Origin: a virus
Direction: 5' to 3' (one strand)
Length of the DNA: 28,670 nt
Virus record (IMG/VR): IMGVR_UViG_3300007540_000074
Coordinates: 1 to 28,670 of that record
The number at the start of each line of letters is the position of its first letter. Position 1 is the first letter of the stretch. The notes beneath the pieces were generated by a model. The model worked only from the letters and a program-made list of their open reading frames with translations, was not told the DNA's origin and searched no databases. The translations under genes and the position numbers were made by a program. Below are positions 5,043 to 24,782 of the stretch, in pieces.

Positions 5043-6545
5043 ATGGCAATTACTGCAGGAAGTAATTTGAATAGTGTTCCAGCTTCACAGAAGCAAACAT
5101 TAGCTACAAATTACCTAGATCTTGCGTCAACAGCTAATCAAGGTTGGGCGCAACAATATTTACCAGATCTAATGGAGAAAGAAGCTGAGGTATTTGGTCC
5201 TAGGACTATATCTGGTTTTCTTTCACAAGTTGGAGCTGAAGAGGCTATGCAAGCTGATCAAGTTGTATGGTCTGAACAATCAAGACTACATTTATCGTAT
5301 ACTGCTACTGTAGACGCAGATGGTGATACAAATGGTACGATAGCAATTACTGCTGATATCGATGGTGATACAACGGTAGGTAGTACAACAAGTAGAACTC
5401 ACGGTATTAGAGTTAACGACATGTTATTAATAGCACAAGCTGGTGTTGTAGTTAAAGCATTAGCTGTAGAAACTCCAAATTCAAACGTTGTTTCAGTTGA
5501 ACCTTATGGTACAGCTGCTTTGTCAACTTTATCTGATGGTGCTTCTACTGTGTTAGTTATTGGTTCTGAGTACGGTAAAGGAGCGTCTTACGCTGATATT
5601 ACTGGTACATACAAAACTGATTCAAGAGGTGCTAACGAACCTACGTTCAAATCATTCCATAATAAGCCAATTATTATGAAAGATTACTATGAGGTATCAG
5701 GTTCTGATGTTTCTAGAATTGGTTGGGTTGAAGTAGCTTCTGAAGGTGGTGCTTCTGGATACATGTGGTATCTAAAAGCTGAAGCTGATACAAGAGCACG
5801 TTTCAATGACTACTTAGAGATGACTATGTTAGAAGCTGAAAAAACTGCTGCTGCATCTATCATTGGTTTTGGTGCTGATAGTCAAGTTAGAGGTGCTGCT
5901 GATGCTGGTGCTAATGGCGCTGGTACTGAAGGTTTATTTGCTGCTATCGAAGATAGAGGTAATGTAACTTCAGGTGTTACTGGTGTTAACGCTGCTACTG
6001 ATTTAGCTGAGTTTGATGCTATATTAGCTGAGTTTGATAAGCAAGGCGCTATTGAAGAAAACATGATGTTTGTAAACAGATCTACTAGTTTAGCAATGGA
6101 TGACATGTTAGCTTCAATGAATTCTTACGGTGCTGGTGGTACATCTTATGGTGTATTTAACAACTCTGAAGATATGGCTCTTAATTTAGGTTTCTCTGGA
6201 TTCCGTAGAGGTTCTTATGATTTCTACAAATCAGATATGAGATACTTAAATGACAAAGCTACAAGAGGTGGTATTAATGACAGAGCAGGTAGCGCAGCTA
6301 TCCGTGGGGTTATGGTACCAGCTGGTACATCTACAGTTTATGATCAGTCTTTAGGTAAAAATCTTAAACGACCATTCTTACATGTTCGTTATAGAGCTTC
6401 TCAAACTGATGACAGACGAATGAAAACATGGGTTACTGGTTCGGTTGGTGCTGCTACGTCAGCGCTTGATGCGATGCAAATCCACATGCTTTCTGAAAGA
6501 TGTTTAGTTACTCAAGGTGCTAACAACTTTATGTTAATGAAGTAA
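5043..6545 (+). CDS. Major capsid protein (HK97-fold)
   Basis: Shell protein, 500 residues, close to the length in crAss-like and Cellulophaga podoviruses. The N-terminal part FLSQVGAEEAMQADQVVWSE (about residues 59-78) and the segment MWYLKAEADTRARFNDYLEM are in the style of those capsid proteins. Residues about 85-190 look like an E-loop/beta insertion and contain two Asp-rich DxDGDT loops at D91-T96 and D105-T110. Later parts (FVNRSTSLAMDDML; CLVTQGANNFMLM at the C-terminus) fit the A-domain. Codons are more regular and Gly/Ala richer than in neighbours, as expected for a highly expressed gene. It is directly followed by a strong hairpin terminator. It begins 5 nt after the scaffold-like gene with an AAAAATT leader instead of a Shine-Dalgarno. 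Confidence 0.88.
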   Translation: MAITAGSNLNSVPASQKQTLATNYLDLASTANQGWAQQYLPDLMEKEAEVFGPRTISGFLSQVGAEEAMQADQVVWSEQSRLHLSYTATVDADGDTNGTIAITADIDGDTTVGSTTSRTHGIRVNDMLLIAQAGVVVKALAVETPNSNVVSVEPYGTAALSTLSDGASTVLVIGSEYGKGASYADITGTYKTDSRGANEPTFKSFHNKPIIMKDYYEVSGSDVSRIGWVEVASEGGASGYMWYLKAEADTRARFNDYLEMTMLEAEKTAAASIIGFGADSQVRGAADAGANGAGTEGLFAAIEDRGNVTSGVTGVNAATDLAEFDAILAEFDKQGAIEENMMFVNRSTSLAMDDMLASMNSYGAGGTSYGVFNNSEDMALNLGFSGFRRGSYDFYKSDMRYLNDKATRGGINDRAGSAAIRGVMVPAGTSTVYDQSLGKNLKRPFLHVRYRASQTDDRRMKTWVTGSVGAATSALDAMQIHMLSERCLVTQGANNFMLMK

Positions 6546-6561
6546 GCATTTATTATATTAA

Positions 6562-6595
6562 GGATCGAGGCTTCGGCCTCGACCCTTTCTTTTTA
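6562..6595 (+). terminator. Rho-independent terminator after the capsid gene
   Basis: An inverted repeat GGATCGAGGC - TTCG - GCCTCGACCC forms a 10-bp stem with a single A-C mismatch (base 6564 against 6583) and a stable cUUCGg tetraloop. It is followed by TTTCTTTTT. It lies 16 nt after the capsid stop codon, so it would end or reduce transcription after the most strongly expressed gene. Confidence 0.85.
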
Positions 6596-6618
6596 TTAAT
6601 TTTATTATATATTATATT

Positions 6619-7470
6619 ATGGCAAAAAAACAAACAAAAGTCTCAACGCAGGCAGACCCTGGGGATGAGCATGTAGAAAAAGTGGTAGTTGAAACTCCAC
6701 CGGTTGTAGAACAACCAAAAGTAAGAGAAAGAATAAAACCGAAAAATGAATGGGAAATAAAAGATAGATTATACATATTAAAAGGTAATAAAAAACCTTT
6801 ATCAAGAATGATCAAGTCTGCAAGCATTTATTATTTTGACAAAGAACTAGGTTATGAAAGAGAACTTAAATACTGTCAAAATCAAAAAACTCCATTTGTT
6901 GACGAGATGAATGGTGATCAAAGATTAGAACATATTATATTTAGATCTGGTAATTTATTTGTAGAAAAAGAAAAAACAACCTTACAAAAATTACTAAGTT
7001 TATATCACCCGCATAGAGATCAAATATACGAAGAATATAAACCAGCAGCTATAGCAGAAGAAGAAATAGATGTGTTAGAAATGCAAGTAGACGCGTTGAC
7101 AGCTGCTAGAAGTATTGATATTGACATGGCGGAAGCTATCATGCGAGTAGAAAAAGGCTCTGAGGTATCTAAGTTAAGTTCTAAAGAACTTAGAAGAGAT
7201 TTGTTAGTGTTTGCTCGTAATAATCCTAAGTTGTTCTTAGAGTTAGCGGATGATGAAAATGTAATGTTAAGAAACTTTGGTATTAGAGCTGTTGAAGCTG
7301 GAATATTAAGATTGTCTTCTGATCAAAGAAACTTTTTATGGGGTAGCAATGGCAGGAAGTTAATGGTTATACCATTTGACGAGCATCCATACACCGCTTT
7401 AGCGCATTGGTTTAAAACCGATGAAGGTATGGAAATTTATTCTAATGTAGAAAAAAGATTGAATGAATAG
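6619..7470 (+). CDS. Conserved phage structural-module protein of unknown function
   Basis: 283 residues. Residues 1-40 are Lys/Glu/Pro-rich and probably disordered. The body begins with NEWEIKDRLYILKGNKKPLS, followed by SASIYYFDKELGYERELKY and then RLEHIIFRSGNLFVEKEKTT; this sequence style recurs in marine Bacteroidota phages beside capsid genes, as far as I can recall, but I know of no function. Residues about 138-190 are helical and acidic. It sits alone between two UUCG hairpins, so it may be expressed at its own level. It ends with TAG TAG TAA in frame, the only gene here that does not end in TAA. It could be a decoration, completion or head-vertex protein; this is only position-based. 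The start at 6619 is preceded by a TATTATATT leader. Confidence 0.72.
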   Translation: MAKKQTKVSTQADPGDEHVEKVVVETPPVVEQPKVRERIKPKNEWEIKDRLYILKGNKKPLSRMIKSASIYYFDKELGYERELKYCQNQKTPFVDEMNGDQRLEHIIFRSGNLFVEKEKTTLQKLLSLYHPHRDQIYEEYKPAAIAEEEIDVLEMQVDALTAARSIDIDMAEAIMRVEKGSEVSKLSSKELRRDLLVFARNNPKLFLELADDENVMLRNFGIRAVEAGILRLSSDQRNFLWGSNGRKLMVIPFDEHPYTALAHWFKTDEGMEIYSNVEKRLNE

Positions 7471-7524
7471 TAGTAAATAATATGGTCGCCCTTCGGGGCG
7501 ATCATTTATTAAAAAAAATACAAT
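7471..7524 (+). other. Short non-coding gap with hairpin
   Basis: 54 nt holding the second hairpin and an A-rich leader for the 55-residue gene; no promoter-like Bacteroidota element (TAnnTTTG) is seen. Confidence 0.6.
7482..7511 (+). terminator. Hairpin with UUCG loop, probable terminator or attenuator
   Basis: ATGGTCGCCC - TTCG - GGGCGATCAT forms a 10-bp stem (one G-T pair, 7485 with 7502). Only a short TTTATT follows before a run of eight A, so it is a less typical intrinsic terminator than the one at 6562. It lies 11 nt after the stop of the 283-residue gene. It could instead be an RNA-processing or stability element. Confidence 0.68.
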
Positions 7525-7692
7525 ATGAGTGATAATAAATCTAAAGGTCTTGGTGATTCGATTGAAAAAATAACAAAAGCAACTGGAATAAAAAAAGTTG
7601 TAGATACTGTTAGTAAAGTCACGGGCAAAGATTGTGGCTGTAACAAAAGAAAAGACACTTTAAATAGATTGTTTCCTTATAACAATAAATAA
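7525..7692 (+). CDS. Small conserved CGC/LFPY protein, unknown function
   Basis: A 55-residue protein that is easy to miss. It begins MSDNKSKGLGDSIEKITKAT and then has an amphipathic helix (GIKKVVDTVSKVTG), a CGC cysteine pair at residues 39-41, and a basic C-terminus with RKDTLNRLFPY. Small proteins with a GKDCGCxxRKxxLNxLFPY ending are, to my recollection, common in structural modules of Bacteroidota phages, though with no assigned role. The CxC pair might bind metal or form a disulfide. Placed directly before the adaptor genes, it may be a small virion or assembly factor. ATG at 7525 has an A-rich leader; the stop TAA is 7 nt before the next gene. Confidence 0.82.
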   Translation: MSDNKSKGLGDSIEKITKATGIKKVVDTVSKVTGKDCGCNKRKDTLNRLFPYNNK

Positions 7693-7699
7693 ATAACTT

Positions 7700-8404
7700 A
7701 TGTTTGGAATTAATGTAGATTCAGTATATCAAACGGTGCAAGCCTTAGCAAATAAAGAACAAAGAGGATATATAACTCCTCAAGAGTTTAATCTATTTGC
7801 TAACCAAGCACAAATGGATATATTTGAGCAATATATATATGATTTAGGAGCTCATACAGTTGAGATGGAAGACAACCATGTAATGGGAGATGCTATAAAT
7901 ATATTATATGGAAAACTTGAACCTTGGTTAAATTCAAGCGCTACTGTGCAAGGTGGTACTACTTTACCGCCAGATGCTAGAAACGGTAGAATATTTGTTG
8001 ATATAAATGGCGTTAGAAGAACACTAAGAAAAACACCGAAAGATTATATAAGAAATCTTAGAGGTTCTAATTGGCATAGAGAAGGTTTTGACGAGCCAAT
8101 ATATTTTGATAATGGTCACAACCAAATACAAGTTTGGACAGGTACTGGTCAAATTACAAATGGCGTTACTTGTGAAAGCATAACTGGCGAACCAGATTTA
8201 GTTTATTGGGGATATATTATTGTAAATGAAGTTCCAATGTATAATCCGTCAACCAGTGTAAACTTTCAAATACATTCAAATGACCAGCCTGATCTTATAG
8301 TAAAAATCCTTAAATTAGCTGGTATCTCTACTGAAGATGACGAATTATATTCTTTAGCTCAAAATGAAGATTCAGAAAACATACAACAAGAAAATAAACA
8401 CTAA
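7700..8404 (+). CDS. Probable head-tail adaptor / neck ring protein
   Basis: 234 residues. The start MFGINVDSVYQTVQALANKE and then GYITPQEFNLFANQAQMDIF describes a helical N-terminus of the sort seen in connector proteins (a structural protein of crAss-like phages with 'YISPQEFN' near its start). A beta-rich middle part follows. The position after the capsid block and directly before another adaptor-like protein and the gp10-like hub is the usual location of the ring proteins that stack below the portal. The acidic C-terminal 30 residues (DEDSENIQ area) may be flexible. The adaptor role is inferred from order and style; no catalytic motif is seen. Confidence 0.66.
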   Translation: MFGINVDSVYQTVQALANKEQRGYITPQEFNLFANQAQMDIFEQYIYDLGAHTVEMEDNHVMGDAINILYGKLEPWLNSSATVQGGTTLPPDARNGRIFVDINGVRRTLRKTPKDYIRNLRGSNWHREGFDEPIYFDNGHNQIQVWTGTGQITNGVTCESITGEPDLVYWGYIIVNEVPMYNPSTSVNFQIHSNDQPDLIVKILKLAGISTEDDELYSLAQNEDSENIQQENKH

Positions 8405-8407
8405 AAT

Positions 8408-9358
8408 ATGATAACATTACCAGTACCAGGTGGTGGTGGAGCAACGCCACAAGCAACATACTATAGCAATACTCCTCAATTTGGAGAGTATCAATTTGTA
8501 AGCCTTAGTGAAGTTATAAATAATTTTATGGCTACATACGTTGGTGAATCAAAAATATTAAGTAATGTCTTAAGAGGCGATGTGCATTTTCATGCCCATA
8601 GAGCTTTACAGGAATTACATTATGATACATTAAAGTCATGCAAAGCTTTAGAATTAGAGGTTTGTAGTAATTTAAGAGTACCACTACCTCATGACTATGT
8701 TAATTATACAAAAATAACAACAGTTGATGCTAACGGTATAGAGCACGTGCTTTATCCAACTAGGCATACTAGCAACCCTACAACTATACTGCAAGATATG
8801 GATGATTGTGATGAATGTGGAGACACAAGTACCACTTTTACCTTTCCAGGTGTTGTTGATGCTTGTTCTGTAGACGCTCCAAGATCAACAACTTGGACCT
8901 CTTACGCTGGTAGTGGTAGTAGTAGCAGCTCAATAGGTACTGGTGGAGGTGCGGATGCATCAGTTGATAATAGCAATTTTTTTAAAAACACTGGGGAAAG
9001 ATATGGTTTGCAACCAGAACACGCTCAAGCTAATGGTTCATTTTTTATTGATTGCAATACTGGTATGATTTATTTTAGCTCTAATATAGCTGGTAGAAAA
9101 ATAATAATACATTATTTAAGTGATGGTCATGGTACTGATGATGAGTTAATGATTCATAAATTAGCAGAAGAGGCTATGTACAAATGGATAGCTTATGGAT
9201 GTGCACAAGCAAGAACTGATGTAGATCCTAATACTACAGTTAGATTAAAACGAGAAAGAATGGCTGAAACTAGAAAAGCAAAAATAAGATTATCAAATGT
9301 TAAAATTGAAGAAATTTCTCAAATAATGAGAAACAGATCTAAATGGATTAAACACTAA
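8408..9358 (+). CDS. Probable neck / tail-adaptor protein with Cys/Ser-rich insertion
   Basis: 316 residues. The N-terminal 25 residues are Gly/Pro/Thr-rich. The core starts SLSEVINNFMATYVGESKIL, then a helix with RAL-QELHYDTLKSCKALELEV and an LRVPLPHDYVNYTKI strand region, a layout seen in phage neck/tubular adaptors. An insertion at about residues 135-195 has DDCDECGD, two further Cys and a Ser/Gly run (GSGSSSSSIGTGGG) and looks like a flexible or surface-exposed addition. The C-terminal helices (ARTDVDPNTTVRLKRERMAE) are basic. It is 3 nt downstream of the previous gene and 3 nt upstream of the gp10-like gene, so the three are probably one translational block. Ring role is an inference. 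Confidence 0.68.
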   Translation: MITLPVPGGGGATPQATYYSNTPQFGEYQFVSLSEVINNFMATYVGESKILSNVLRGDVHFHAHRALQELHYDTLKSCKALELEVCSNLRVPLPHDYVNYTKITTVDANGIEHVLYPTRHTSNPTTILQDMDDCDECGDTSTTFTFPGVVDACSVDAPRSTTWTSYAGSGSSSSSIGTGGGADASVDNSNFFKNTGERYGLQPEHAQANGSFFIDCNTGMIYFSSNIAGRKIIIHYLSDGHGTDDELMIHKLAEEAMYKWIAYGCAQARTDVDPNTTVRLKRERMAETRKAKIRLSNVKIEEISQIMRNRSKWIKH

Positions 9359-9361
9359 GCA

Positions 9362-11593
9362 ATGCCAGAATTAAAAAATAGTTTTACTGGTGGTAAAATG
9401 AATAAAGATCTCGACGAGAGAATTATTCCTAGTACTGAATATAGGGAGGCTTTAAATATATCTGTTGCAACATCAGAAGATAGTAATGTTGGAGCAGCTC
9501 AAAACATATTAGGTAACACCCGTGTTTCTTGCGCAATACAAGGTCCAAACGGCAAATATGCAGAAAGATCTAAACATATAGCCGCAATAGCAGATCCACA
9601 AACAGATAAAATATATAGATTTATTCATACTCCAGATAATGTTTCTGGTGTTTGGATGGATAGGATAATAGAGTTTGACACAACGGCACCTTTAAATGCT
9701 GAGTGTGAAGATAAGGAGAAAGCAGTAATGGTTGATATATATAAAGTAAGAACAACTATAACCGACGCTTCTTATGAATGTGATGGTGGCCCAGCTACTA
9801 TTACAGTTCAAGGTAATATATATCAATTAAGATGGGGGATGTTGATTGTAGGTGGTGGAATTAAAGAGTCTGACGGTGTAACTGTTCTTAGTGTTAATAT
9901 ACTACCAGGAGGTCAATCAGCAAAACTAAAACTATCTAACAATATTAATGGAGATAATACACAAAATATTACAAACGGAGATGTAATATTAACACATGAC
10001 AGATCATTAAATTTTGATCCTGATCGTTTTATAACAGGTATTAATGTTTTAGATAATATGATATTTTGGACTGATAATTATTCAGAGCCAAAAAAAATAA
10101 ATATAGAAAGAGGTTTAGCTGGTAGTTTGGTTACGTCTGAAAGATACAATTCAATTCCAGCTGTCCCTTATATATATGATAGTTTTGATCAACACACTAG
10201 ACTAGTTATTTGGGTAAACGAAGAATGGATAGTTCCTACTGAATGTAGTATAGTTTCACCAAATGGATGTGGACCAGGAGAACCTGTTGAAATATTAGGT
10301 TGTACGGATGGAACTGGAGCTAGTAATCCAAACGTGCCTAATACCGGTGCTGCTACTAATTATAATGCGTTAGCTACAGTAGATGACGGTTCATGTGTTT
10401 ATCCTCCTGTACCTTGTGAAAACCAAGGTTGTAATGATCCAATTGCAACTAACTATGACCCTATTAATTGTTCGGATTGCGCAGGTGTTGTTGGTGGTAC
10501 AAATTACAGTTGTTGTGTATACCCAGTTGTGCCATGTCCAGGAACGCTTCAAATATATTTTCCAGAAGCTCTTATGGATATGTATGGATCACCAAGCAAT
10601 TCTGGTACTACTCAATACATGAATGTAGCAAGCACATACGCTGGCGATATAGGTTGGTGGAACAGTACTAACACTAATGCTGAAAACTTTCAGATGGTTC
10701 CTCAGCATCGATTAAACAACTGGTGGCCTTATGAAAATGTAGCATTAATAATACCTTCGTTTTACGCGGTGCACAGTTCCGGTTATAAAAACACCCAAGA
10801 TACTTTTGGTATTCAAAGTTGGGTTCCAGTAGCTAACAGTGCGTTTGATGGTTGGAAGTTTCCGACAAAATCACCTGCAGATCATCCAGATGGTTGGGTA
10901 CACAAACCAAGATGGGAAATATTATGGAGAGCACATGATCAAGGTATTGTAACGTATAGAAATGAATTAAACGGAGCATCACCACAACCTGGTGGTATGG
11001 CAACTATAAACGCGGCTGTTCCTTTACCGACGGTAGATGATCCAATCAATTGGAATCAAAATAATTATGATTTTATTCCAGAATTTTTTCAAGAAACCAT
11101 TGATTCAAACCAAGGATTTCATCATGTTCACAACAGCATGTACTCGCAACCGGAAATATATTATGGTGTTCGTTTTAAAAGTCCACAAGATTTTTTAACT
11201 TGGATGAATCGAATTCCAGAATTTGTATCAGATCGTGTGTTAAATAATCCAACGTTTACTTACCATGGTAGTATGATTGCAACTCACACTGCAAGTCATG
11301 ATAACAATCCTCAGTGGGTAGGTACTATTCCTTATTTAAACTCAGGTATGTTACGAACACCACAAGGTGGTATACCAAGGTTTTCTCAAGATCCAGAAAC
11401 AGCATTTGGTACTTCAAATATAACAGCTCCATACGGTACTATTAATCCTACCAACGCTTGGGCTTATCAAATTACTGCTAAAACTTTAATGACAGATGTA
11501 ATACAAAAAAGTTTAAATAAGTTTTATCAACAAGCTGGTATAACTGAAATACCAATTATAACAAGATCAACAGTTCAAAAATGTCTAGAATAA
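9362..11593 (+). CDS. N-terminal part of gp10-like tail-hub (stabilization/muzzle) protein with host-type Cys repeats
   Basis: 743 residues. The first about 260 match the beginning of the P22-gp10-like stabilization/muzzle family of crAss-like and flavobacterial phages: NSFTGGKMNKDLDERIIPST (residues 6-25), REALNISVATSEDSNVGAAQ, and MIFWTDNYSEPKKINIERG, a beta-propeller blade. After FDQHTRLVIWV the family's usual continuation is missing; instead there are two GCxD...NYxP...C repeats (10298-10402 and 10427-10522) and then a 355-residue Trp/Pro/Asn-rich region that I do not recognise. The family's later blades appear in the next gene. This suggests a split and expanded hub protein, with the new C-terminal part exposed, possibly as a receptor-binding domain. 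ATG is 3 nt after the previous stop. Confidence 0.75.
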   Translation: MPELKNSFTGGKMNKDLDERIIPSTEYREALNISVATSEDSNVGAAQNILGNTRVSCAIQGPNGKYAERSKHIAAIADPQTDKIYRFIHTPDNVSGVWMDRIIEFDTTAPLNAECEDKEKAVMVDIYKVRTTITDASYECDGGPATITVQGNIYQLRWGMLIVGGGIKESDGVTVLSVNILPGGQSAKLKLSNNINGDNTQNITNGDVILTHDRSLNFDPDRFITGINVLDNMIFWTDNYSEPKKINIERGLAGSLVTSERYNSIPAVPYIYDSFDQHTRLVIWVNEEWIVPTECSIVSPNGCGPGEPVEILGCTDGTGASNPNVPNTGAATNYNALATVDDGSCVYPPVPCENQGCNDPIATNYDPINCSDCAGVVGGTNYSCCVYPVVPCPGTLQIYFPEALMDMYGSPSNSGTTQYMNVASTYAGDIGWWNSTNTNAENFQMVPQHRLNNWWPYENVALIIPSFYAVHSSGYKNTQDTFGIQSWVPVANSAFDGWKFPTKSPADHPDGWVHKPRWEILWRAHDQGIVTYRNELNGASPQPGGMATINAAVPLPTVDDPINWNQNNYDFIPEFFQETIDSNQGFHHVHNSMYSQPEIYYGVRFKSPQDFLTWMNRIPEFVSDRVLNNPTFTYHGSMIATHTASHDNNPQWVGTIPYLNSGMLRTPQGGIPRFSQDPETAFGTSNITAPYGTINPTNAWAYQITAKTLMTDVIQKSLNKFYQQAGITEIPIITRSTVQKCLE
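10298..10522 (+). repeat. Two GCxD/NYN/DDGSC-type Cys repeats
   Basis: Protein repeats. The first (10298-10402) reads GCTDGTGASN, then ATNYNALATVDDGSCVY; the second (10427-10522) reads GCNDPIATNYDP, then a longer Cys-rich spacer ending NYSCCVY. They match the consensus GCTDPTAxNYNPxAxxDDGSC that recurs in secreted proteins of Bacteroidota and that is repeated many times in the gene at 17994. Confidence 0.88.
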
Positions 11594-11603
11594 ATTAATA
11601 AAT

Positions 11604-14600
11604 ATGGCTGAAAACGATTATTCTTCTGGAACTGGGCCTAGCTTAGGTCCTTCTACTACTCCGGGTACACCTGGTACGCCTATCACACCAGGCACGCCTG
11701 CTTTAATAAATCCAGATCTTACTTTAAGTACACCTAGTACTGGTTCTACACCTGCTGTTGTAACTACGCCCACTTTTATCTCAAATCCTTCTGGTGTTGG
11801 AGTATTAACAGGTGGTGTAAATACTTTAGTGTGGCAAAATGGAGGTCTTTTTTTAGATGACCAAGTTGTTGGGCCTGCTAGAGGAGTTGATCAACCTAGA
11901 GGAGCAATTTATGAACGTACGGAGTTTATAAAAAGTTGTCAAGACGTTTATGTTCAGGAAAAGCATTTATCGGTTGTACGTAAAGGACCAACAGCACCTG
12001 TAACGCTATCTATGTTTAGCTTTGTAAGAGAAGATCAAAACAATGACGATAAAGTTGACATAGAGAACGAATTTTTTGGTGATGAAGCTACCCACTTAGC
12101 AAGCGACGGCAGTAGTGTTAGTGTGTTTTTTGACTCGTATAAAAATAGAAAAGCAGTTGGTGATATAGTAGAGTTACCTATAGATCAAACATCAACCGGT
12201 GATGGAGAAGACTTTAAAAGTGGTGATGTAGTTATTATATCTTATGAATACACCGATTACTTAGGAATTTATCAAGAAACTACTTGTAGAGCTGTAATTC
12301 AACTTTGGGATGGTACTAGCACGAGTACTTTTGTTCAACTACTACAAAGTACAAATGGTTTTCCTTTAATCACAGATGACACCGATGTATATACTGTTAA
12401 GTTGGTTCAAGATGACCCAATGTTTAAACTCAAATTTCCAAGATTTTCTTATAGATATAAATATGAAGATGGAGAGTACTCTGTTTTTGCACCTTGGTCT
12501 GAAGTAGCTTTTATACCTGGAGAATTTGATTATTTACCTAAAAAAGGTTATAATTTAGGTATGGTTAATAGATTAAGAGCTTTAAAAGTTATGGATTGGG
12601 TTCCTAAGGGTATACCAAAAGACGTTGTTCAGGTTGATTTATTATACAAAGAATCAAACGGACCAAATGTTTACACCGTTGAAAGTTTTAAAAGAGATGA
12701 TGAAATTGTTGGGTCTAGATTAACTAACTATTGGAACACCCCTGGTACTGGTTCAAACTTTGGGAACTATACAGTTACTTCAGAGTTAATTCACGCTGTT
12801 GTTCCCTCAAACCAAATGCTTAGACCTTGGGACAATGTTCCTAGAAAAGCTTTAGCACAAGATATTACTGCAAATAGATTGATATTTGCTAATTATTTAC
12901 AAAACTACAATATAAGATCTTCTGTTAATTCAACAAGTGAAATAAAGCCTATTTTTACATGGGCACTAAGTGGAGATCTTGATCAACCCGCAACTAATGT
13001 AAAGTTACCGGCTAAATCTCTTAAGTCAATGAGATCTTATCAACTTGGGATTGTATATAGAGATAGGTATGGTAGAGAAACTCCAGTTTTAACTTCTAAA
13101 ACAGGTTTATTTAAAATTAAAAAAGACAGATCGCTTTTATACAATAGAATAGAAGTTGGTATGTCTTCACCCGCTCCAGATTGGGCTGAATCATTTACTT
13201 ATTATATTAAAGAAACTTCTAACGAGTATTACAACGTTGCAATGGATCGTTGGTATGATGCTGAAGATGGCGGGGTTTGGGTTTCTTTTCCATCATCAGA
13301 AAGAAATAAAATACAAGAAGATGGCGTGTTAATTCTAAAAAAACAACACGAAACAGATACAGCTGTTGTTACAGATGAAGAATATAAAGTTATAGATATA
13401 AAAAACAGTCCACCTACATTTATAAAAACAGATACTAGATACTGGGGAAGTGTAGATATGATGCTGCCTCCTCCTGGTTGGGGTATAGGTAGTAAACCTG
13501 GTGGTTGGCAATCTGGAATGTTTGTACCAACAGGCATACCTAAAAGAAATAGAATATATATAGACATATACAAAGAGTATGTTGAGGCAACTATATTAGC
13601 CGGTATAAAAGACGCGTTAAAAGATGGTGTTGAAATAAGAATAACACAAACACCTGGACAAGCTAGCGCACTAACTACCCAAGCAACTACACATGTTAAC
13701 AAATCGGATTGGTATCAGGTTGCTCAATTTACACAAACAACAGAAGACCCAGCAACACATATTGAAACAACTTTAGATCCAAATGATCCAAACACAACTA
13801 TAGAAACAGAAGTTGAAGCGTCGGGATCTGCTGATCCAGTAATGAGAATTACATTAGAAAAACGAATGGGCGATGATATGCTTTTTACTGAACCGGCAGG
13901 TGGTTTAGATTTATCAAGAGGATTAGCTATAGAATGTAAAACTCATAAAGTAAGAGATAAAGCTCAATTTCAAGGTAGATTTTTTGTTAAACTACATAGG
14001 AGCAGTGACTTTGTTACAAATGTAATAAACACTTCAACTAAAGAAACTGAAAACCTTGTTGTTGTCGAAAGTAGAGGTGTTAAGTATTTGTGTGACGGAC
14101 ATCCTGGTGTTCAAGACTGGAGTTATATGACACCTGCGTTATCACCAACACCTGTTGCTGCCCCATATACTAACTACATACCTCCAGGGCAAAACATTTA
14201 CAAACTTAGACCTGGCCAAGCAAATATAAACGATGGTTATGATGGTTGGAAAAATCCAAACGGAGCTTCAAAAGGTAGACCGTTTAGCGTTGTTAGTAGT
14301 TATGGGTATGCTGGAAAATCTGCAACATTTTTAGGTGTTAACGGACAGGTATACGGCTCTCCAGATGGTACAAACGCAAGTCAAACCCCTCCAGATGTTG
14401 CTGCTTATGAAAAATGGCCTTATGGACCTGGACCTCACGATGGTGATCCTTTTAGTTCTTTTCCTACTTCTGCTCAGGCAGACTTAACTCAACAGTCTTA
14501 TAAAGGACTACCAATTACTGATGGTTGGGGACCTGGATCATGGTTTTCAACATCATATAAAAACCATGTAAACGCAGATTATCAACCTTATTTTTGGGAA

Positions 14601-17600
14601 CCAAGATATGCAAAGTTTAGAGAGTGGCCTTCTTTTATAAGCTCTTCATGGGAACCAGGAGTATTACATCCAGGACATGCTATCAGCGCCGGCGTTACTG
14701 ATGGATCTCCAGGGTTGGTATTACTGGAGGAAGATGGTTTTGTGTTTAGAACTACAAGTGGTGGAGCAGCTATGCTACACCAAGATACATCAATAGCGTC
14801 TTCTTTATTTGGAGATGCATATAGATCAAATCCATATCAAATGCCTGCTATCTGGGGAGATAACGATGCTATGATAAATAGTACAACAGGAAACTATACT
14901 TTTGGCGCAGATACAATTACTAGTTTAAATAGAGACTGGATGGGTTATTACAACACCGGTACTGGTGGTAATACGTATTGGCCATTTGTAAAAACAAATT
15001 GGAGTAGATGGTTTATAGATAAGGTTGGCGCAGCTGAAGGTTATGGTGGCCACGGTGAGTATGTGGGTAACGATGGTGTTTCTCACATGAGTATTTCTTA
15101 CTGGGGAATTGGTGCGAGCGATGATAGAACAGATAGAGATCCACACGATTTATCAGCTAAACAACCTTTTGAAATGCAATTTGCTAATATGATTTCCACT
15201 GTTGGCACTATGTTTAGATTTAAGCAAGACCCCGACCAAATAGTATATACAGTAACATCAGCCAACGCAGAGCCCGTTCACAACTATGAGGCCTTTAGAG
15301 GGTCTTGGGGTTGTGTAGATCAAATTACTTACGATCCAGGTGGTGGGTATATAAAATCACAAATACAAACAGGTGAGTTTAATACTGGTAGTAGCACATT
15401 TAAACATTTATTGCCTAATTCTGGACCTATGCTTTGTGGTCATCAAAGAGGTATGGGTGGAAGAAAAGCTTTTTACTCAGATTTATATCATGACTTTGAC
15501 TCGACAGGCACGTGGAAACGAACAGGCCGTCACTTTACAAACAATCGAATTAGGATTAATATAACTTTAGACAAAGCTATAGGCGGTGGACCAAACGCTT
15601 TTCATCCTATAACAAATCATGTTGATGAAAATGGAATTGCTAATATAGAGCAAGCTGGAGATCACGGCGCTAGATTAAGATATGATTCAGATATAGCTTC
15701 ACATGTTAAAACAGAAAAAGGTGGTACACCTGTTATATTTGGTTTAAATTCTAACAGTGGTTATGAGATGTATAACTTATCAAGTTATTGGAATATTAAT
15801 TCTACTAAAAGAGCTTTAATTCAAGCCAACGGTTATCAACAGCCACACGACTCTTCAGATGCTTTTTACGATGAACCAACAGATGGAAGTATTGCTCCTT
15901 ATATTGGATTGCACGAAAGAGGTTTAAATCAAACTACTATAGAAATTTTAGAGTATTATGATGAAAACGATGGAGATCAAAAAATGAGTAATAATCCAGC
16001 TATATTTGAAACAGAGCCAAAAGAAGATGTTGGTTTAGATATATATTACGCTGCTTCACCATCTTTTCCTATTAATACAAAACGATTTAGATATGACACT
16101 GATGAAGTACCAGGTTGGAGTAACTTTAATCTAAGAGGAGAAGAGTTTGTTAAGGTTGGTGGTAATAATACTCCACATGGTTATGCTAAAATACATATTC
16201 CTTCTGGTGTACCCCCAGTTGGTTCAACTCCTCAAATAGCTATCATTGATGGTGTACAAGAAAACATTATATTTTTAAATACACCACTTATGTTAGATGC
16301 AAATGGAGATCCACTACCTCCTGATGTTAATGATATTGTTGAGTTTACAGTGCAGGGTGATGGGGTGTTTTATGGGGCAGGAATAGATGTTACTTTTGTT
16401 AGAGCTAGAATTACAAAAGTAATGACACCTACAATGTTTGTAATAGAATCTAACGCTCACACATCAGACAACAAGGTAAGTTTAAGTTACTTTAATTGTT
16501 ATTCATTTGCTAACGGCGTAGAGTCAAACAGAATTAGAGATGATTACAATGCTGTTACTATAGACAAGGGTGTTAAGGCTTCAGCTCCTTTAGCTACAGG
16601 TTATGAAGAAGAAAGAAAGAAAAGCAGTCTTATATTTTCTGGAATATATAATTCTACTAGTGGTATTAATAGTACAAATCAATTTATACAAGCCGAACCA
16701 ATAACTAAAGATTTAAACCCAATCAACGGTAGCATTCAAAAAATATATGCTAGAGATACGGATTTAGTTACATTTTGTGAAAATAAAGTATTTAAAATAT
16801 TAGCTAAAAAAGATGCTTTATTTAATGCTGACGGAAATACAAACGTAACTTCTAACGCAGCCGTTTTAGGTGCTACAATACCTTTTAGCGGAGAATATGG
16901 TATATCAAGAAATCCAGAATCATTTGCTGCTGAATCGTATAGACTTTACTTTACGGATAAAGACAGAGGTACTGTTATGAGATTGTCTAAAGATGGTTTA
17001 ACACCTATATCAGACAAAGGTATGAAAGATTGGTTTAAAGACAACTTAATGCACGCCAGCACTTTGATTGGTAGTTTTGACACTAGAGAAGATCATTATA
17101 ATTTATCTATAGACACTAAAGATCAAGATAATATTACTAACGCTTATACTTTAACTTTTACAGAAAGCAAAGGTGGTGGATGGGAATCTTTTAAAAGTTT
17201 TATTAAACAAGGTGGTATTAGTTATAAAAATAAATATTACACATTTGCTTCTAATAAGTTTAATTACGATAAAAACACAGCTCCAGGTTCTAAATCTGAA
17301 ATACTATATGGAGAAGGAGAAAAATATGGAAAAAGAATTGGTATGGCGGAAATGTGGCAGCATCATGTTGACTTAGATTTTCATAGAGTTGTAGCAAACT
17401 CTGTTAACGGGTCAACACAGGTTTCTTTAGTTCCATCAAGCCAAACAAGTGTTGTTACATCGTTTATGAACGTTGAAGGTAATGGCATCCCTATAGACAC
17501 TGTTGTTTCAAGTAGCGTTAGCGGAGGAAATGTAATTATACTTAACAAACCCGTTCATATTAATGCTGGAGAAAAAATAAAATTTACCACACCAAGAAAT

Positions 17601-17990
17601 AATTTTTATGCAACACCATCGCACTCAATGGTAAGAACTCTTATGAACGGAGCACAGGGATCTGTTAAAAGATTTAAAACAATAAACTACGAAGGAACGC
17701 AAGGTAAAGTTTTAGGACAACAAGGTGTTGATTATTATACTTTATCAAAAGGAAATAATCTTCCTATAAATGTAGGTCAAAATTATTCAAATAATATTCC
17801 AAAAAAAGGTTGGGAGGTTTTTGAAATAACTACTGATTTACAAAAAGGAACTATAAGAGAGTTTATTGCAAAAGAAAACAAATGGTTTAATTATATAAGA
17901 GGTCACGCTCCGGGTGGAGATGCTGGAAGTGGTGATAACTTTGATACAGCTGAATTTTCAGTACAAGGATTAGGATTTACAAATTTATAA
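11604..17990 (+). CDS. Giant C-terminal gp10-like tail-hub protein
   Basis: 2128 residues, the largest complete gene here. Residues 1-75 are a Pro/Thr/Gly/Ser linker (PGTPGTPITPGTPA). Residues about 110-135 (VQEKHLSVVRKGPTAPVTLS) and 278-310 (FPRFSYRYKYEDGEYSVFAP) pick up the gp10-like family where the previous gene leaves it. Residues about 780-1500 are an unfamiliar Trp/Gly/Tyr/His-rich stretch, probably inserted domains. Residues 1704-1815 return to the strongly conserved blades: SIQKIYARDTDLVTF, GEYGISRNPESFAAESYRLY, DRGTVMRLSKDGLTPISDKG. The C-terminus is beta-rich. Role: hub/nozzle of the short tail and plug for the DNA channel, with surface-exposed additions likely binding the host. 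It starts 10 nt after the previous gene without Shine-Dalgarno. Possible fibre function of the insert is inference. Confidence 0.8.
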   Translation: MAENDYSSGTGPSLGPSTTPGTPGTPITPGTPALINPDLTLSTPSTGSTPAVVTTPTFISNPSGVGVLTGGVNTLVWQNGGLFLDDQVVGPARGVDQPRGAIYERTEFIKSCQDVYVQEKHLSVVRKGPTAPVTLSMFSFVREDQNNDDKVDIENEFFGDEATHLASDGSSVSVFFDSYKNRKAVGDIVELPIDQTSTGDGEDFKSGDVVIISYEYTDYLGIYQETTCRAVIQLWDGTSTSTFVQLLQSTNGFPLITDDTDVYTVKLVQDDPMFKLKFPRFSYRYKYEDGEYSVFAPWSEVAFIPGEFDYLPKKGYNLGMVNRLRALKVMDWVPKGIPKDVVQVDLLYKESNGPNVYTVESFKRDDEIVGSRLTNYWNTPGTGSNFGNYTVTSELIHAVVPSNQMLRPWDNVPRKALAQDITANRLIFANYLQNYNIRSSVNSTSEIKPIFTWALSGDLDQPATNVKLPAKSLKSMRSYQLGIVYRDRYGRETPVLTSKTGLFKIKKDRSLLYNRIEVGMSSPAPDWAESFTYYIKETSNEYYNVAMDRWYDAEDGGVWVSFPSSERNKIQEDGVLILKKQHETDTAVVTDEEYKVIDIKNSPPTFIKTDTRYWGSVDMMLPPPGWGIGSKPGGWQSGMFVPTGIPKRNRIYIDIYKEYVEATILAGIKDALKDGVEIRITQTPGQASALTTQATTHVNKSDWYQVAQFTQTTEDPATHIETTLDPNDPNTTIETEVEASGSADPVMRITLEKRMGDDMLFTEPAGGLDLSRGLAIECKTHKVRDKAQFQGRFFVKLHRSSDFVTNVINTSTKETENLVVVESRGVKYLCDGHPGVQDWSYMTPALSPTPVAAPYTNYIPPGQNIYKLRPGQANINDGYDGWKNPNGASKGRPFSVVSSYGYAGKSATFLGVNGQVYGSPDGTNASQTPPDVAAYEKWPYGPGPHDGDPFSSFPTSAQADLTQQSYKGLPITDGWGPGSWFSTSYKNHVNADYQPYFWEPRYAKFREWPSFISSSWEPGVLHPGHAISAGVTDGSPGLVLLEEDGFVFRTTSGGAAMLHQDTSIASSLFGDAYRSNPYQMPAIWGDNDAMINSTTGNYTFGADTITSLNRDWMGYYNTGTGGNTYWPFVKTNWSRWFIDKVGAAEGYGGHGEYVGNDGVSHMSISYWGIGASDDRTDRDPHDLSAKQPFEMQFANMISTVGTMFRFKQDPDQIVYTVTSANAEPVHNYEAFRGSWGCVDQITYDPGGGYIKSQIQTGEFNTGSSTFKHLLPNSGPMLCGHQRGMGGRKAFYSDLYHDFDSTGTWKRTGRHFTNNRIRINITLDKAIGGGPNAFHPITNHVDENGIANIEQAGDHGARLRYDSDIASHVKTEKGGTPVIFGLNSNSGYEMYNLSSYWNINSTKRALIQANGYQQPHDSSDAFYDEPTDGSIAPYIGLHERGLNQTTIEILEYYDENDGDQKMSNNPAIFETEPKEDVGLDIYYAASPSFPINTKRFRYDTDEVPGWSNFNLRGEEFVKVGGNNTPHGYAKIHIPSGVPPVGSTPQIAIIDGVQENIIFLNTPLMLDANGDPLPPDVNDIVEFTVQGDGVFYGAGIDVTFVRARITKVMTPTMFVIESNAHTSDNKVSLSYFNCYSFANGVESNRIRDDYNAVTIDKGVKASAPLATGYEEERKKSSLIFSGIYNSTSGINSTNQFIQAEPITKDLNPINGSIQKIYARDTDLVTFCENKVFKILAKKDALFNADGNTNVTSNAAVLGATIPFSGEYGISRNPESFAAESYRLYFTDKDRGTVMRLSKDGLTPISDKGMKDWFKDNLMHASTLIGSFDTREDHYNLSIDTKDQDNITNAYTLTFTESKGGGWESFKSFIKQGGISYKNKYYTFASNKFNYDKNTAPGSKSEILYGEGEKYGKRIGMAEMWQHHVDLDFHRVVANSVNGSTQVSLVPSSQTSVVTSFMNVEGNGIPIDTVVSSSVSGGNVIILNKPVHINAGEKIKFTTPRNNFYATPSHSMVRTLMNGAQGSVKRFKTINYEGTQGKVLGQQGVDYYTLSKGNNLPINVGQNYSNNIPKKGWEVFEITTDLQKGTIREFIAKENKWFNYIRGHAPGGDAGSGDNFDTAEFSVQGLGFTNL
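11661..11700 (+). repeat. Pro-Gly-Thr low-complexity repeat at N-terminus
   Basis: Imperfect tandem PGT/PIT units in DNA (variants of CCNGGNACN) encode TPGTPGTPITPGTPA, with more Thr/Pro-rich sequence to about base 11775. It is probably a flexible linker before the first folded part. Confidence 0.7.
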
Positions 17991-17993
17991 GAT

Positions 17994-20309
17994 ATGGCAA
18001 TAGCAACACGTATAAACTATGGGGGTGGTAATTGTGGGCCAGGAACTGGACCTTGTCAAGGGCTTGATTGTCCTGGTACAAGTGGGGATTGTTATCCTTA
18101 TTGCGATCCACCGCCGGGTCTTTGTCCAGACGGAAGTCAACCAATCCCATCTAAAAGATCTGGTGGCTTTGAGTGTCCTGATCCAGGTCCTTGCGTGGGA
18201 ACTGGCTGTCCACCTAACAACTGCTCTGGGCCATGTTGTGTTAATAATGAGTGCATTTGTAATGATTGTAGTTGGGGTAATGATGGTGATTGGCATATTT
18301 ATTGGAGTTGCGACGATGATCACGAAATAATAGTTTTAAACGATGATAGATCAATATCTGATTTAGAATCTCATAATAATCATTTTGATAATTCACAAAC
18401 AGAACTAGGTAGTACAATTACAATACCAAGTCATTTTGGTTTTGGTACAGATGCGATTATACCTTTTGTATCATATCCAAACGATTGTTATACTTATTTA
18501 GGCAAAAAATACGGAACTACACCAAGTGATGTTGTTACAGCTGGTCTAACCGTTGTTGAGGGGCTTTGGGCTGGAACGTCACCAAGGGGACAAAGTTTTA
18601 GCCACCAACTCCAAGAATGTAAAGATTGTGGCCCGGTAACGCCTCCACCTCCAATTGGTGGTTGTATGGATCCAACGGCCTGCAATTACAATCCCAACGC
18701 GACAGGTAGCAGTAAAGATTGTTGTTATATCACTGGTTGTACAGATCCAACAGCACTTAATTATAATGCTGGTGCGTGTTGTGATGATGGTTCTTGTTGT
18801 TTTCAATCAGGTTGCACTAATCCATTAGCTTGTAATTACAACTCAAAAGCGCCGCCGTGTATTGACGATGGTTCTTGTTGTTTTAATGAAGGGTGTATGG
18901 ATGATGGTACTGTTGGTAACGCTTTAAGACCATCTAATTGGACGGGTCCAGCTACAAATTACGATCCAAACGCATGTTGTCCTGGTACTTGTATATATAC
19001 AAATGTAGAAAGCCCTGATTACACTTATGTAATTTGGTGTTCGTTCTTTAAACTAAACGGTAATGTAATTCAAGATGACACGTTCTACACAGAACTTAAT
19101 GCAGCAATTACTACTAATAGTTTTTCATATACAGACATTGCAACCATGTTTGGTGGTACGCAAAATACTTTACCTGATTTTAATGGAACTCAAAGAATAA
19201 TGGTTCCTGGAGACACTGTTAGACAATATTATCCATTTAGTGATAATAACAATATAATTTCAAGGACTTATGTAGGCGTTATATCATCTTCAACTGACCT
19301 AGTAACAAGCTCTGGATTAGATATTGGTAGCGGAGTGTTTATTCAATCGTCAGGAGCCCAAGTTATGTTAGGACCTGGGGTTTATAGTGGCGGTGGAAAT
19401 TCACCAACAATTACTGCTTATAATTTTTTAGACTCATCAGCATGTTGTGATAAAATAACAACTCCGACTTGTAGTGGCGCAGTTTCTGGTTGCACAGACC
19501 CCACAGCTCACAACTACAACCCGCTAGCAACTATTGACGATGGTTCATGTGAATTTTGCGTAACAGAACAAGACTTACTTACATGGCAAAGAGAAAACAA
19601 CGAGGGTCAAGTGTTTGATATTACTACTTTTATAAGTGGAAAAGGACTCACGGGTACGGGGGTATTTTGTGGATGTAAAGACGTTGCAGCAAATAATTAT
19701 TGGAGTTGGGCAACGTTTGATCCGGTAACACCAAATCCACCTGGGTCATGTACTTACATCTCTGCAAGTATTTCTGGTTGTACAGACGATGGTAATTCTC
19801 CTGCTGGAACAACGTTTGGTAATTTAACTAGACCTTCAATTCACCCAGCAGGTGTCCCAGCATTAAATTATAATCCAAGTGCTACATCGGATGATAGTAG
19901 CTGTCTGTGGTGTACGTGGACTAGCGGTAGTGGTTGTACAACAAACGGAGTATGTAACTCTGGTGGATCAGGTTGGTTTATAGATTATAATAATTCAAAT
20001 ATCAATGGTAATTACCCTAGATTTATAACAATAGGTTTAAAACCAAATGGTAATGGTATAAGTGAGGTAAAATTAAGTTCTAACCAGGTAAGCAATGGCG
20101 TTGTTACTAGCCTTACTAAAGATACAAGTTTTACTAGTTTTGGTCCTTATGGTGTTCAAAATGGTTGGGAACAATGGAGTGTTACTTTAAGCGCTAATGT
20201 TGGTTTTACGGCTCCAAACAATGCTGTAAGTTTCTTAGTTTATGAATCAGATGGAGCGGGTGGAACATCAGTGTGTAATCCTATTATAATAGGCATAGGA
20301 TTAGGTTAA
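17994..20309 (+). CDS. Cys-rich repeat protein, probable tail surface / receptor-contact protein
   Basis: 771 residues with about 60 Cys, very unusual for a phage protein. Residues 1-100 are Cys/Gly/Pro-rich (CPGTSGDCYPYCDPPPG), GC-richer than the flanks. A folded segment follows (about 100-215). Residues 223-335 hold four GC(T/M)D-type repeats; a beta-rich domain (about 340-490) separates them from three more (499-640), and the C-terminus (650-771) looks like a beta-sandwich ending SVCNPIIIGIGLG. The repeat consensus GCTDPTAxNYNPxAxxDDGSC is known from secreted and adhesin-like proteins of Bacteroidota. No signal peptide is seen, as expected for a virion protein. Placed 3 nt after the tail-hub gene, it is probably in the tail tip. 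The exact binding partner is unknown. Confidence 0.72.
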   Translation: MAIATRINYGGGNCGPGTGPCQGLDCPGTSGDCYPYCDPPPGLCPDGSQPIPSKRSGGFECPDPGPCVGTGCPPNNCSGPCCVNNECICNDCSWGNDGDWHIYWSCDDDHEIIVLNDDRSISDLESHNNHFDNSQTELGSTITIPSHFGFGTDAIIPFVSYPNDCYTYLGKKYGTTPSDVVTAGLTVVEGLWAGTSPRGQSFSHQLQECKDCGPVTPPPPIGGCMDPTACNYNPNATGSSKDCCYITGCTDPTALNYNAGACCDDGSCCFQSGCTNPLACNYNSKAPPCIDDGSCCFNEGCMDDGTVGNALRPSNWTGPATNYDPNACCPGTCIYTNVESPDYTYVIWCSFFKLNGNVIQDDTFYTELNAAITTNSFSYTDIATMFGGTQNTLPDFNGTQRIMVPGDTVRQYYPFSDNNNIISRTYVGVISSSTDLVTSSGLDIGSGVFIQSSGAQVMLGPGVYSGGGNSPTITAYNFLDSSACCDKITTPTCSGAVSGCTDPTAHNYNPLATIDDGSCEFCVTEQDLLTWQRENNEGQVFDITTFISGKGLTGTGVFCGCKDVAANNYWSWATFDPVTPNPPGSCTYISASISGCTDDGNSPAGTTFGNLTRPSIHPAGVPALNYNPSATSDDSSCLWCTWTSGSGCTTNGVCNSGGSGWFIDYNNSNINGNYPRFITIGLKPNGNGISEVKLSSNQVSNGVVTSLTKDTSFTSFGPYGVQNGWEQWSVTLSANVGFTAPNNAVSFLVYESDGAGGTSVCNPIIIGIGLG
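18660..18998 (+). repeat. Array of four GC(T/M)D-type Cys repeats
   Basis: Units start at 18660 (GCMDPTACNYNPNA), 18735 (GCTDPTALNYNAGACCDDGSC), 18810 (GCTNPLACNYNSKA ... DDGSCCF) and 18891 (GCMDDG, longer, with ATNYDPNACCPGTC). The first three are exactly 75 nt apart. The DDGSC-encoding DNA, GATGATGGTTCTTGTTG and close variants, recurs almost unchanged in units 2 and 3. Confidence 0.9.
19488..19910 (+). repeat. Second group of Cys repeats
   Basis: A nearly perfect unit at 19488-19556 (GCTDPTAHNYNPLATIDDG then SCEF), a degenerate one from 19671 (GCKDVAANNYW ... GSCTY), and a long one from 19779 (GCTDDGNSPAG ... ALNYNPSATSDDSSCLW). Insertions between the GC and NYN halves lengthen the last two. 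Confidence 0.85.
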
Positions 20310-23387: not shown

Positions 23388-24782
23388 ATGAAAAAAATAA
23401 AATCATCACCTTTAAAACAGATGGAAACAGGAGCTATGGGAAAAAACCCCCAAGAGCACTTAAATAAAATGAAACAACAAACCGAAGACGGGTTAGCTAT
23501 AATTGGAGAGGGCGCTAAAAGACTTGCATGGAAAGACATGCAAATTAATATTAGAGCAATTGAGCCAATGAGCATGCAGTTGAGAAAAGCTAAAGACCAA
23601 ATTCTTAGAAAAAAAGATAGAGAACTATTTGACGATCTTGAACAACCTGAGTTGTCACCTGCGTATGCTAAAATATTTAAAATTGTATTAGATAAATACA
23701 AACAAGAACTTTTCGAAGCATTAAATAGTGAAGACAAAGAACAAGAGGGAGTTGTAAAAACAAAAATGGCAGCGTTTAAACAAGAGGCTGCCGCTATCAA
23801 AGAGTGTATAGCAGAATTTCGCGAAGATCATTTTGACTCAGAGTCATTATTATCTAAAGGAGTTTCAGCACAACAAGTTAGTTTTGCTACTCAAATGTAT
23901 TGTGAAAATCCAGATTTAAAAATTGCAAACGCTACTAGTCAAGATGTTGAAAATGGTTACACCGATTGGTTTGGAGTGCCAGTTATTGAAGATAAACTAT
24001 ACGCTTTTATATATGATTTTAGAGGTGTTCAAGTTATGATGAATATTTTAGATGGCAACAAAGATATGTTTATAAGAAACAATTTAAAAGCTTCTGAATA
24101 TATTAACTTTTTAAATAAAATGCATGAAGACGCTTTAAAAGCTTCTGGCGCTAAAGCTGCTCACAAAATAGATTTAGGGCGTATTAACTATCAAATAGAC
24201 AGTATGTTTGGTTATGGTGATGGTACAGCTAGTACAGAACAAAATGAATTAGTTATGATGTTTGCACATGACAGCGAGGTATTGAGAGATGGTAGTAGTT
24301 TTAGACGTCATTTATATGAACACCCAAGTATAAAAGATTTAAATTACGGAGGGTTTGACTGGAATAGTTTAAACGAAATAGCACCATTAGGACCTGGCGA
24401 TGTAAATTATTGGCATGATAACGTTGATGATATTGATAAGTTAATGTTAGTTGACGCTCTTATTAATGTTGATAATCCATTTTTTGATCTTGAGTTATTA
24501 AGAACATTAGTTAAAGAATACTACACTACTAAACTAGAAAATGCATGGTGGAAAGGCATGGGCTACAAAGAGGGCAAACTAGAATTAATGAGATTAAAAA
24601 GAGACAAACTTAACAAAGCTAGATTTGAAAAAGAAAAAACAGACGCTGCTAAAAATGGTATGTTAGAATTTTTATTTGATGGCAAGATGTATCCAACAGG
24701 TATGACACCAGAGAAAGTTAAAAAGCAAGAACAAGAAACTAAAGAAGCTACTGAAAAAGCTAATCCAGCGTTAAACAAATAA
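23388..24782 (+). CDS. Probable internal virion protein with N-terminal SPLK tag
   Basis: 464 residues from ATG 23388; the frame is open further upstream to 23268, but that part overlaps the preceding gene, and the AAAAATATAAAT leader fits starting here. The N-terminus MKKIKSSPLKQMETGAMGKN shares the 'SPLK' element with the next gene. The body is helical (REDHFDSESLLSKGVSAQQV; VKEYYTTKLENAWWKGMGYK) and ends in a charged Lys/Glu helix. No enzyme motif is seen. The protein LENAWWKGMGYKEGKLELMR segment looks familiar from marine phage virion proteins, but no function comes with it. Its place between a membrane-active coiled-coil protein and a giant protease-like protein suggests it is part of the ejected complex. 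Confidence 0.68.
   Translation: MKKIKSSPLKQMETGAMGKNPQEHLNKMKQQTEDGLAIIGEGAKRLAWKDMQINIRAIEPMSMQLRKAKDQILRKKDRELFDDLEQPELSPAYAKIFKIVLDKYKQELFEALNSEDKEQEGVVKTKMAAFKQEAAAIKECIAEFREDHFDSESLLSKGVSAQQVSFATQMYCENPDLKIANATSQDVENGYTDWFGVPVIEDKLYAFIYDFRGVQVMMNILDGNKDMFIRNNLKASEYINFLNKMHEDALKASGAKAAHKIDLGRINYQIDSMFGYGDGTASTEQNELVMMFAHDSEVLRDGSSFRRHLYEHPSIKDLNYGGFDWNSLNEIAPLGPGDVNYWHDNVDDIDKLMLVDALINVDNPFFDLELLRTLVKEYYTTKLENAWWKGMGYKEGKLELMRLKRDKLNKARFEKEKTDAAKNGMLEFLFDGKMYPTGMTPEKVKKQEQETKEATEKANPALNK

Follow-up and report, generated by a model that had tools for sequence, protein, structure and literature searches.

The muzzle is the hexameric tail-tip gate, or gatekeeper, of the crass-type tail, and crAss-like phages encode their cargo (ejection) proteins downstream of it. 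To our knowledge, the known muzzle members are single chains, and our search of the openly accessible literature for a split muzzle or nozzle found none, which does not prove absence. In ΦcrAss001 the muzzle is gp44 (PDB 7QOK/7QOL), one chain of 1371 aa whose gene follows that of a ring protein. The nozzle proteins P22 gp10 and T7 gp12 are tail-tip propellers like the muzzle but are much smaller and lack Ig-like and crass domains.

Here we analyze a viral locus that resembles gp44 in lying after a ring-protein gene, in its homologous N- and C-terminal regions, and in an overall fold that gp44 shares with a single-chain relative of the protein, but in which the same order of parts is enlarged and spread over two genes. 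The muzzle of Cellulophaga phage phi38:1, gp97 (1324 aa; Pervagoviridae), is clearly homologous in sequence to the two halves in their given order, but it is one gene without an insert at the junction between the N and IG1 segments.

Gene neighborhood and layout

The window, by which we mean the whole 28,670-base stretch of IMG/VR record IMGVR_UViG_3300007540_000074, is probably a genome fragment and carries a crAss-like structural module. From the terminase end onward, its genes encode the portal, the capsid protein, a pair of probable ring proteins, the two muzzle chains, a Cys-rich repeat protein, and, last, probable cargo proteins; the ring, muzzle, and repeat genes, with all muzzle segments given below, are on the plus strand. 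Two virion-protein genes at 7700-8404 and 8408-9358 (phrog_14543, phrog_13977) probably encode tail-barrel ring proteins, and their position before the muzzle matches crAss001, where gp43 precedes gp44. By BLAST, the isolates with muzzle relatives are Pervagoviridae, Pachyviridae, and Elemovirus. The lineage of the window probably infects marine Bacteroidota.

The ORFs of 743 and 2128 aa are present where the preliminary description placed them and together make the 2871 residues that it reported. Muzzle chain 1 (743 aa, 9362-11593) matches PF25731 at residues 5-248, phrog_14478 at positions 1-94, and, among our segment models, only that of the N segment. Its conserved part, residues 1-281 (9362-10204), was delimited by family alignments, ends at an HTRL motif, and corresponds to the N-terminal ring-joining region and the first propeller strands. 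The remaining residues, 282-743 (10205-11590), form a foreign C-terminal tail without a Pfam match. An AlphaFold2 (AF2) model of chain 1 is confident at residues ~61 to 250 and of low confidence beyond 290. Within it, residues ~129 to 212 (window 9746-9997) appear to form a small beta-barrel inserted between propeller strands, which many relatives lack; the modeled insert resembles EF-Tu/ATPase-type barrels only at Z ~6 to 7.

The stop of chain 1 is separated by 10 nt (11594-11603) from the ATG of chain 2, which opens in a different frame. Chain 2 (2128 aa, 11604-17990) is recognized by phrog_14478, PF25729, and the IG1, MID, PROP, B7, and C segment models. It begins with a Pro/Thr/Gly-rich leader (residues 1-111; 11604-11936) and enters the family with an IG1-equivalent segment (residues 112-445; 11937-12938), followed by a conserved middle segment (residues 466-835; 12999-14108), both delimited by HMMs. 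An expanded, poorly conserved distal region (residues 836-1617; 14109-16454) retains few alignment columns, and a Pfam search of 14100-16200 gave no match. The motifs GEYGISRNPESF and DGLTPISDKG belong to the last part of chain 2 (residues 1618-2126; 16455-17981), which comprises the C-terminal blades of the propeller and the C-terminal domain and is matched by the PROP, B7, and C HMMs.

Directly downstream, and separate from the muzzle, a gene at 17994-20309 encodes a 771-aa Cys-rich protein in which the motif GC[TM]DPxAxNYNPxAxxDDGSC is repeated; by blastp it matches C-terminal extensions of muzzle relatives, e.g., L131 residues 1977-2086. No curated family matched this protein above its cut-off, and a jacalin-like match (E = 0.029) was set aside as below cut-off. 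A search of NCBIfam gave no matches.

Assignment to the crAss-like muzzle family

The family is the tail muzzle of crAss-like phages, represented by ΦcrAss001 gp44, and P22 gp10 is distantly related to it in fold. The preliminary description used the label "gp10-like", but the proteins are crAss-like muzzles and not gp10 proper; in the Pfam search only crAss muzzle models matched, and no gp10 family did. In profile-profile comparison (hhalign), the N-terminal region of the relatives matched gp44 residues 11-155 (probability 97.8, E = 7e-13), and the C-terminal region of the family profile matched gp44 residues 1052-1333 (probability 98.8, E = 9.5e-17). PF25729 was matched by 18 of 20 single-chain relatives (best E = 1e-18). 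The middle of the protein, IG1 included, has no significant sequence homology to gp44 (IG1 segment, E = 0.33).

We compared folds using an AF2 model of residues 1-1200 of a single-chain relative, L061 (mean pLDDT 72), rather than of the window chains. Its top PDB match was the phiCrAss001 muzzle 7qok_A (Foldseek, 5.7e-12; VIA, Z = 13.1 over 500 residues with rmsd 6.2, the next unrelated row scoring 9.1). Its match to P22 gp10 (8eap_D; Z = 8.3 over 111 residues) was no stronger than those to unrelated propellers. For chain 1, its AF2 model matched no PDB chain significantly and gave only weak propeller-like matches (Foldseek, E = 7e-3 for the best; VIA, no Z above 7.3). Because phmmer searches of PDB sequences with either chain, and an hmmsearch with the family profile, found no muzzle, the link to gp44 required profile-profile and structure comparison; at the level of single chains, hhalign of the shallow split-clade alignments to gp44 gave probabilities only near 30.

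Two complementary parts of one protein

The genes at 9362-11593 and 11604-17990 encode complementary parts of one protein. We built six segment HMMs (N, IG1, MID, PROP, B7, and C) from an alignment of 117 loci. At 116 of the 163 loci scanned with these models, all segments lie in one ORF; in the split clade, N lies on chain 1 only and IG1-MID-PROP-B7-C on chain 2. The two sets never occur on the same chain in this clade, so neither gene is a paralogue of the other, which the preliminary description had named as a finding that would refute its proposal. Searches of each half with curated models, which it had also proposed, identified chain 1 as the start of a muzzle and chain 2 as carrying the muzzle C-terminal domain: chain 1 matched PF25731 (crAss_MUZ) at its N terminus only (E = 3e-6; with 26 bits just short of the curated cut-off, 27), and chain 2 matched PF25729 (crAss_MUZ_C) at residues 1997-2100 (E = 8e-5). 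The family phrog_14478 covers both chains (chain 2, E = 7e-104, best stretch 900-1122).

The borders of the two parts agree with those noticed at the outset. The exit from the family had been put near FDQHTRLVI, and the family motifs of chain 1 do end with HTxL; the point of re-entry in the second gene proved to be xxEKHLSVVRKGP, the first family motif of chain 2. In the single-chain consensus, HTxL and xxEKHxxVxRKGP are only about ten residues apart. The order predicted against a single homologue is borne out on the isolate protein phi38:1 gp97, to which residues 1-109 of the first ORF align at 1-97, residues 277-608 of the second at 195-502, and residues 1624-1881 of the second at 861-1110. 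Complementary, ordered halves and a site common to 14 viral contigs, the window counted, thus support the proposal of one ancestral protein divided over two frames.

In the published architecture of gp44, IG1 (residues 163-292) sits between blades 2 and 3 (Bayfield et al. 2023; PMC10172136). Mapped onto gp44, the break lies near residues 155-163, on the connection from blade 2 of the propeller to the first immunoglobulin-like domain, a placement based on the N-terminal alignment to gp44 and the co-linear structural match. From the N-terminal side the position is firm, and the IG1 side is without a significant sequence match.

Size and variable sequence at the break

The protein had been described as greatly enlarged. 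It is large, but not exceptionally so: complete single-chain relatives (n = 145) range from 1324 to 3652 aa (median, 2178), and eight of them have at least 2871 aa. Of the foreign domains proposed for both halves, that of chain 1 stands as its tail, but chain 2 starts with a Pro/Thr/Gly linker of ~110 aa in which we found no recognizable domain.

The tail of chain 1 is dispensable, varying from 26 to 1141 aa among relatives; the shortest tails (26 to 97 aa) are those of L009 (26 aa), L007, L177, and L020. In the window it consists of Cys-rich repeats of the GCTD...DDGSC type (residues ~312 to 390) followed by a unique region, residues 390-743 having no match among the loci compared. Even the closest relative, L083, has a different tail with only the repeat part in common, and across the clade the tails are mostly unshared beyond these short repeats. 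The same repeats end chain 2 in L007 and L020 and also occur as C-terminal extensions of single-chain muzzles. The variability of these modules and their position at the tail tip suggest that the tails and repeats may contact receptors.

An N-terminal SPLK motif on chain 2

Chain 2 of eight of the 14 split members (L011, L015, L016, L017, L019, L020, L177, and L178) carries an N-terminal tag, SPLK, that is otherwise found near the N terminus only in proteins whose genes follow the muzzle. The loci that we collected hold 2228 distinct ORFs with a length of 150 aa or more, of which 32 have SP[LF]K within their first 30 residues: these eight and 24 encoded downstream of a muzzle. No N-terminal SP[LF]K occurs in 1456 upstream ORFs (head and tail-barrel genes) or in 223 muzzle ORFs with an N segment (Fisher P = 9e-15 and 2e-9, which are only indicative, the ORFs being related). 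In the first locus set, 23 ORFs had the motif in their first 25 residues versus 0.65 expected from its internal rate, and reordered control tetrapeptides occurred 0 to 4 times in the larger ORF set. The window's own chain 2 lacks the motif; the protein starting at 24784 carries it (MLKKPSPLKHKE, 24784-24820), as does an internal start at 23388-23420 (MKKIKSSPLKQ). SPLK or SPFK also lies inside the fused junctions of L014 and L181, which would fit either a relic or an internal processing site. We discounted SPLK as a general feature of muzzles; its internal occurrences (L026 and others) lie near the family motif ITVIKKxPxxAP and may have arisen by chance.

The tagged downstream genes are putative cargo proteins, and SPLK is a possible address or docking signal for proteins of the tail or capsid lumen. 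We offer only as a tentative reading, with the odds against it, that the new N terminus of chain 2 acquired K-x-SPLK, otherwise a mark of downstream-encoded proteins alone, as an address, tether, or processing signal, and that chain 2 would then share a route or docking site with tagged proteins inside or on the tail. If so, SPLK would be a previously unnoticed signal for proteins inside or docking onto the tail and, should it prove to be a virion address, a simple sequence handle for recognizing ejected proteins in uncultured phages; our search of the openly accessible literature found no report of such a signal, which does not prove that none exists.

Probable history of fission and fusion

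Most of the relatives have a single-chain muzzle, among them the isolates phi38:1, Gundel, and ΦcrAss001. Being one polypeptide is a trait of the known members and not of the fold. In a tree based on the N, IG1, and MID segments, 17 members with inserts at the junction form a clade (UFBoot, 100); in the outgroup closest to it, L190, a junction of ~38 aa lies within one chain. Sisters L174 and L181 are single chains with foreign junction inserts of about 220 and 330 residues, respectively; L014 is a single ORF, and all remaining members are split. Since L014 is nested in the clade with support of 98 yet is a single ORF, it is probably a re-fusion. The likely order of events is a short linker, an insert at the loop, fission inside the insert, and one re-fusion (L014). 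The split group without L174 and L181 has support of only 74, so there may have been one fission or several. When the tree is built from the ring protein encoded upstream, these phages also group (0.979); the group then takes in the fused members, several contigs that are truncated, and L190 and L212, which are single-chain.

Fissions at two other sites, which also fall between conserved segments, are independent of that in the window's clade. One separates N-IG1 from the rest, between the IG1 and MID segments (L049, L118, and L312). The other detaches the C-terminal domain (L022, L234, MW202828, and, in culture, the phages phi13:2, phi18:3, phi46:3, and phi19:3). In Cellulophaga phage phi13:2 (gp120 and gp121; Pachyviridae isolates) the C-terminal domain is likewise a separate gene, of 241 aa, but the cut is near the C terminus, and a second, weak match to this domain persists in the long gene; the gp121-type gene of this group shares 39% identity with the last part of phi38:1 gp97. 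In the phi13:2 record (L003), the muzzle genes lie at 5416-10257 and 10261-10986, and both are annotated as structural proteins, the C-terminal-domain gene only as such.

The two-chain lineage and the independent cuts elsewhere found also in cultured Cellulophaga phages, provide a natural map of the sites at which free ends are tolerated in the gate and host-facing modules can plug in. An annotation that relies on full-length homology will overlook or mislabel such muzzle pieces, as in the phi13:2 group.

Proposed assembly and alternative explanations

We consider it highly probable that the split muzzle is one gene divided at the blade/IG1 loop in a clade of 14 and that its two chains fold together; judged from sequence, the gate is then probably assembled from two chains. 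Chain 1 would supply the ring-joining N terminus and the first two blades, completing the propeller and the joint to the tail barrel, while chain 2 would supply all other blades and the C-terminal domain as well as the Ig-like domains and the distal crass domains. Both chains would be incorporated together, giving a hexamer of 12 chains. At the cut, the free ends, such as the Cys-rich tail of chain 1, would allow variable and probably surface-facing modules to be gained, lost, or swapped while the gate itself stayed undisturbed.

The best-surviving alternative accepts that both chains assemble but holds the fission to be neutral, the tails having no receptor role and the second gene start no advantage. 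Tails that shrink to 26 aa and vary without a shared fold, cuts at three sites, and a tolerated re-fusion (L014) all fit such drift; however, the new end has repeatedly gained long Cys-rich modules and the new N terminus bears SPLK in eight of 14 members, which suggests use, and we consider neutrality possible but the less likely outcome.

We find it improbable that the two genes are paralogues, or that chain 1 is now a protein in its own right with no remaining link to the muzzle, leaving chain 2 alone as a truncated gate. Chain 1 by itself has no significant PDB match, and the separate C-terminal gene of phi13:2 with the weak second copy in its long gene indicates that partial duplication occurs in this family. 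Against this, the conserved segments of the halves do not overlap anywhere, and chain 1 is conserved and directly adjacent to chain 2 in all split contigs, its conserved columns being those of the single-chain N terminus.

That sequencing or assembly error, programmed frameshifting, or readthrough makes one gene seem two is very improbable, even though two other splits, in L001 and L078, do resemble indels: the 14 contigs are cut at one site by a clean stop and ATG, the leaders of gene 2 are unrelated sequences, and the distance from the gene 1 stop to the listed gene 2 start varies from -22 to 27 nt over all three relative frames, which contradicts the fixed frame relation that a frameshift mechanism requires and so excludes frameshifting. 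Neither of the two resembling cases was counted as a true fission. In L078 the frames overlap by 161 nt, probably through a single-base indel. In Maribacter phage Panino (L001) the reading continues past a T-run in a different frame, and the apparent muzzle split at 8240-8372 of the deposited genome resembles a single-base indel at that run.
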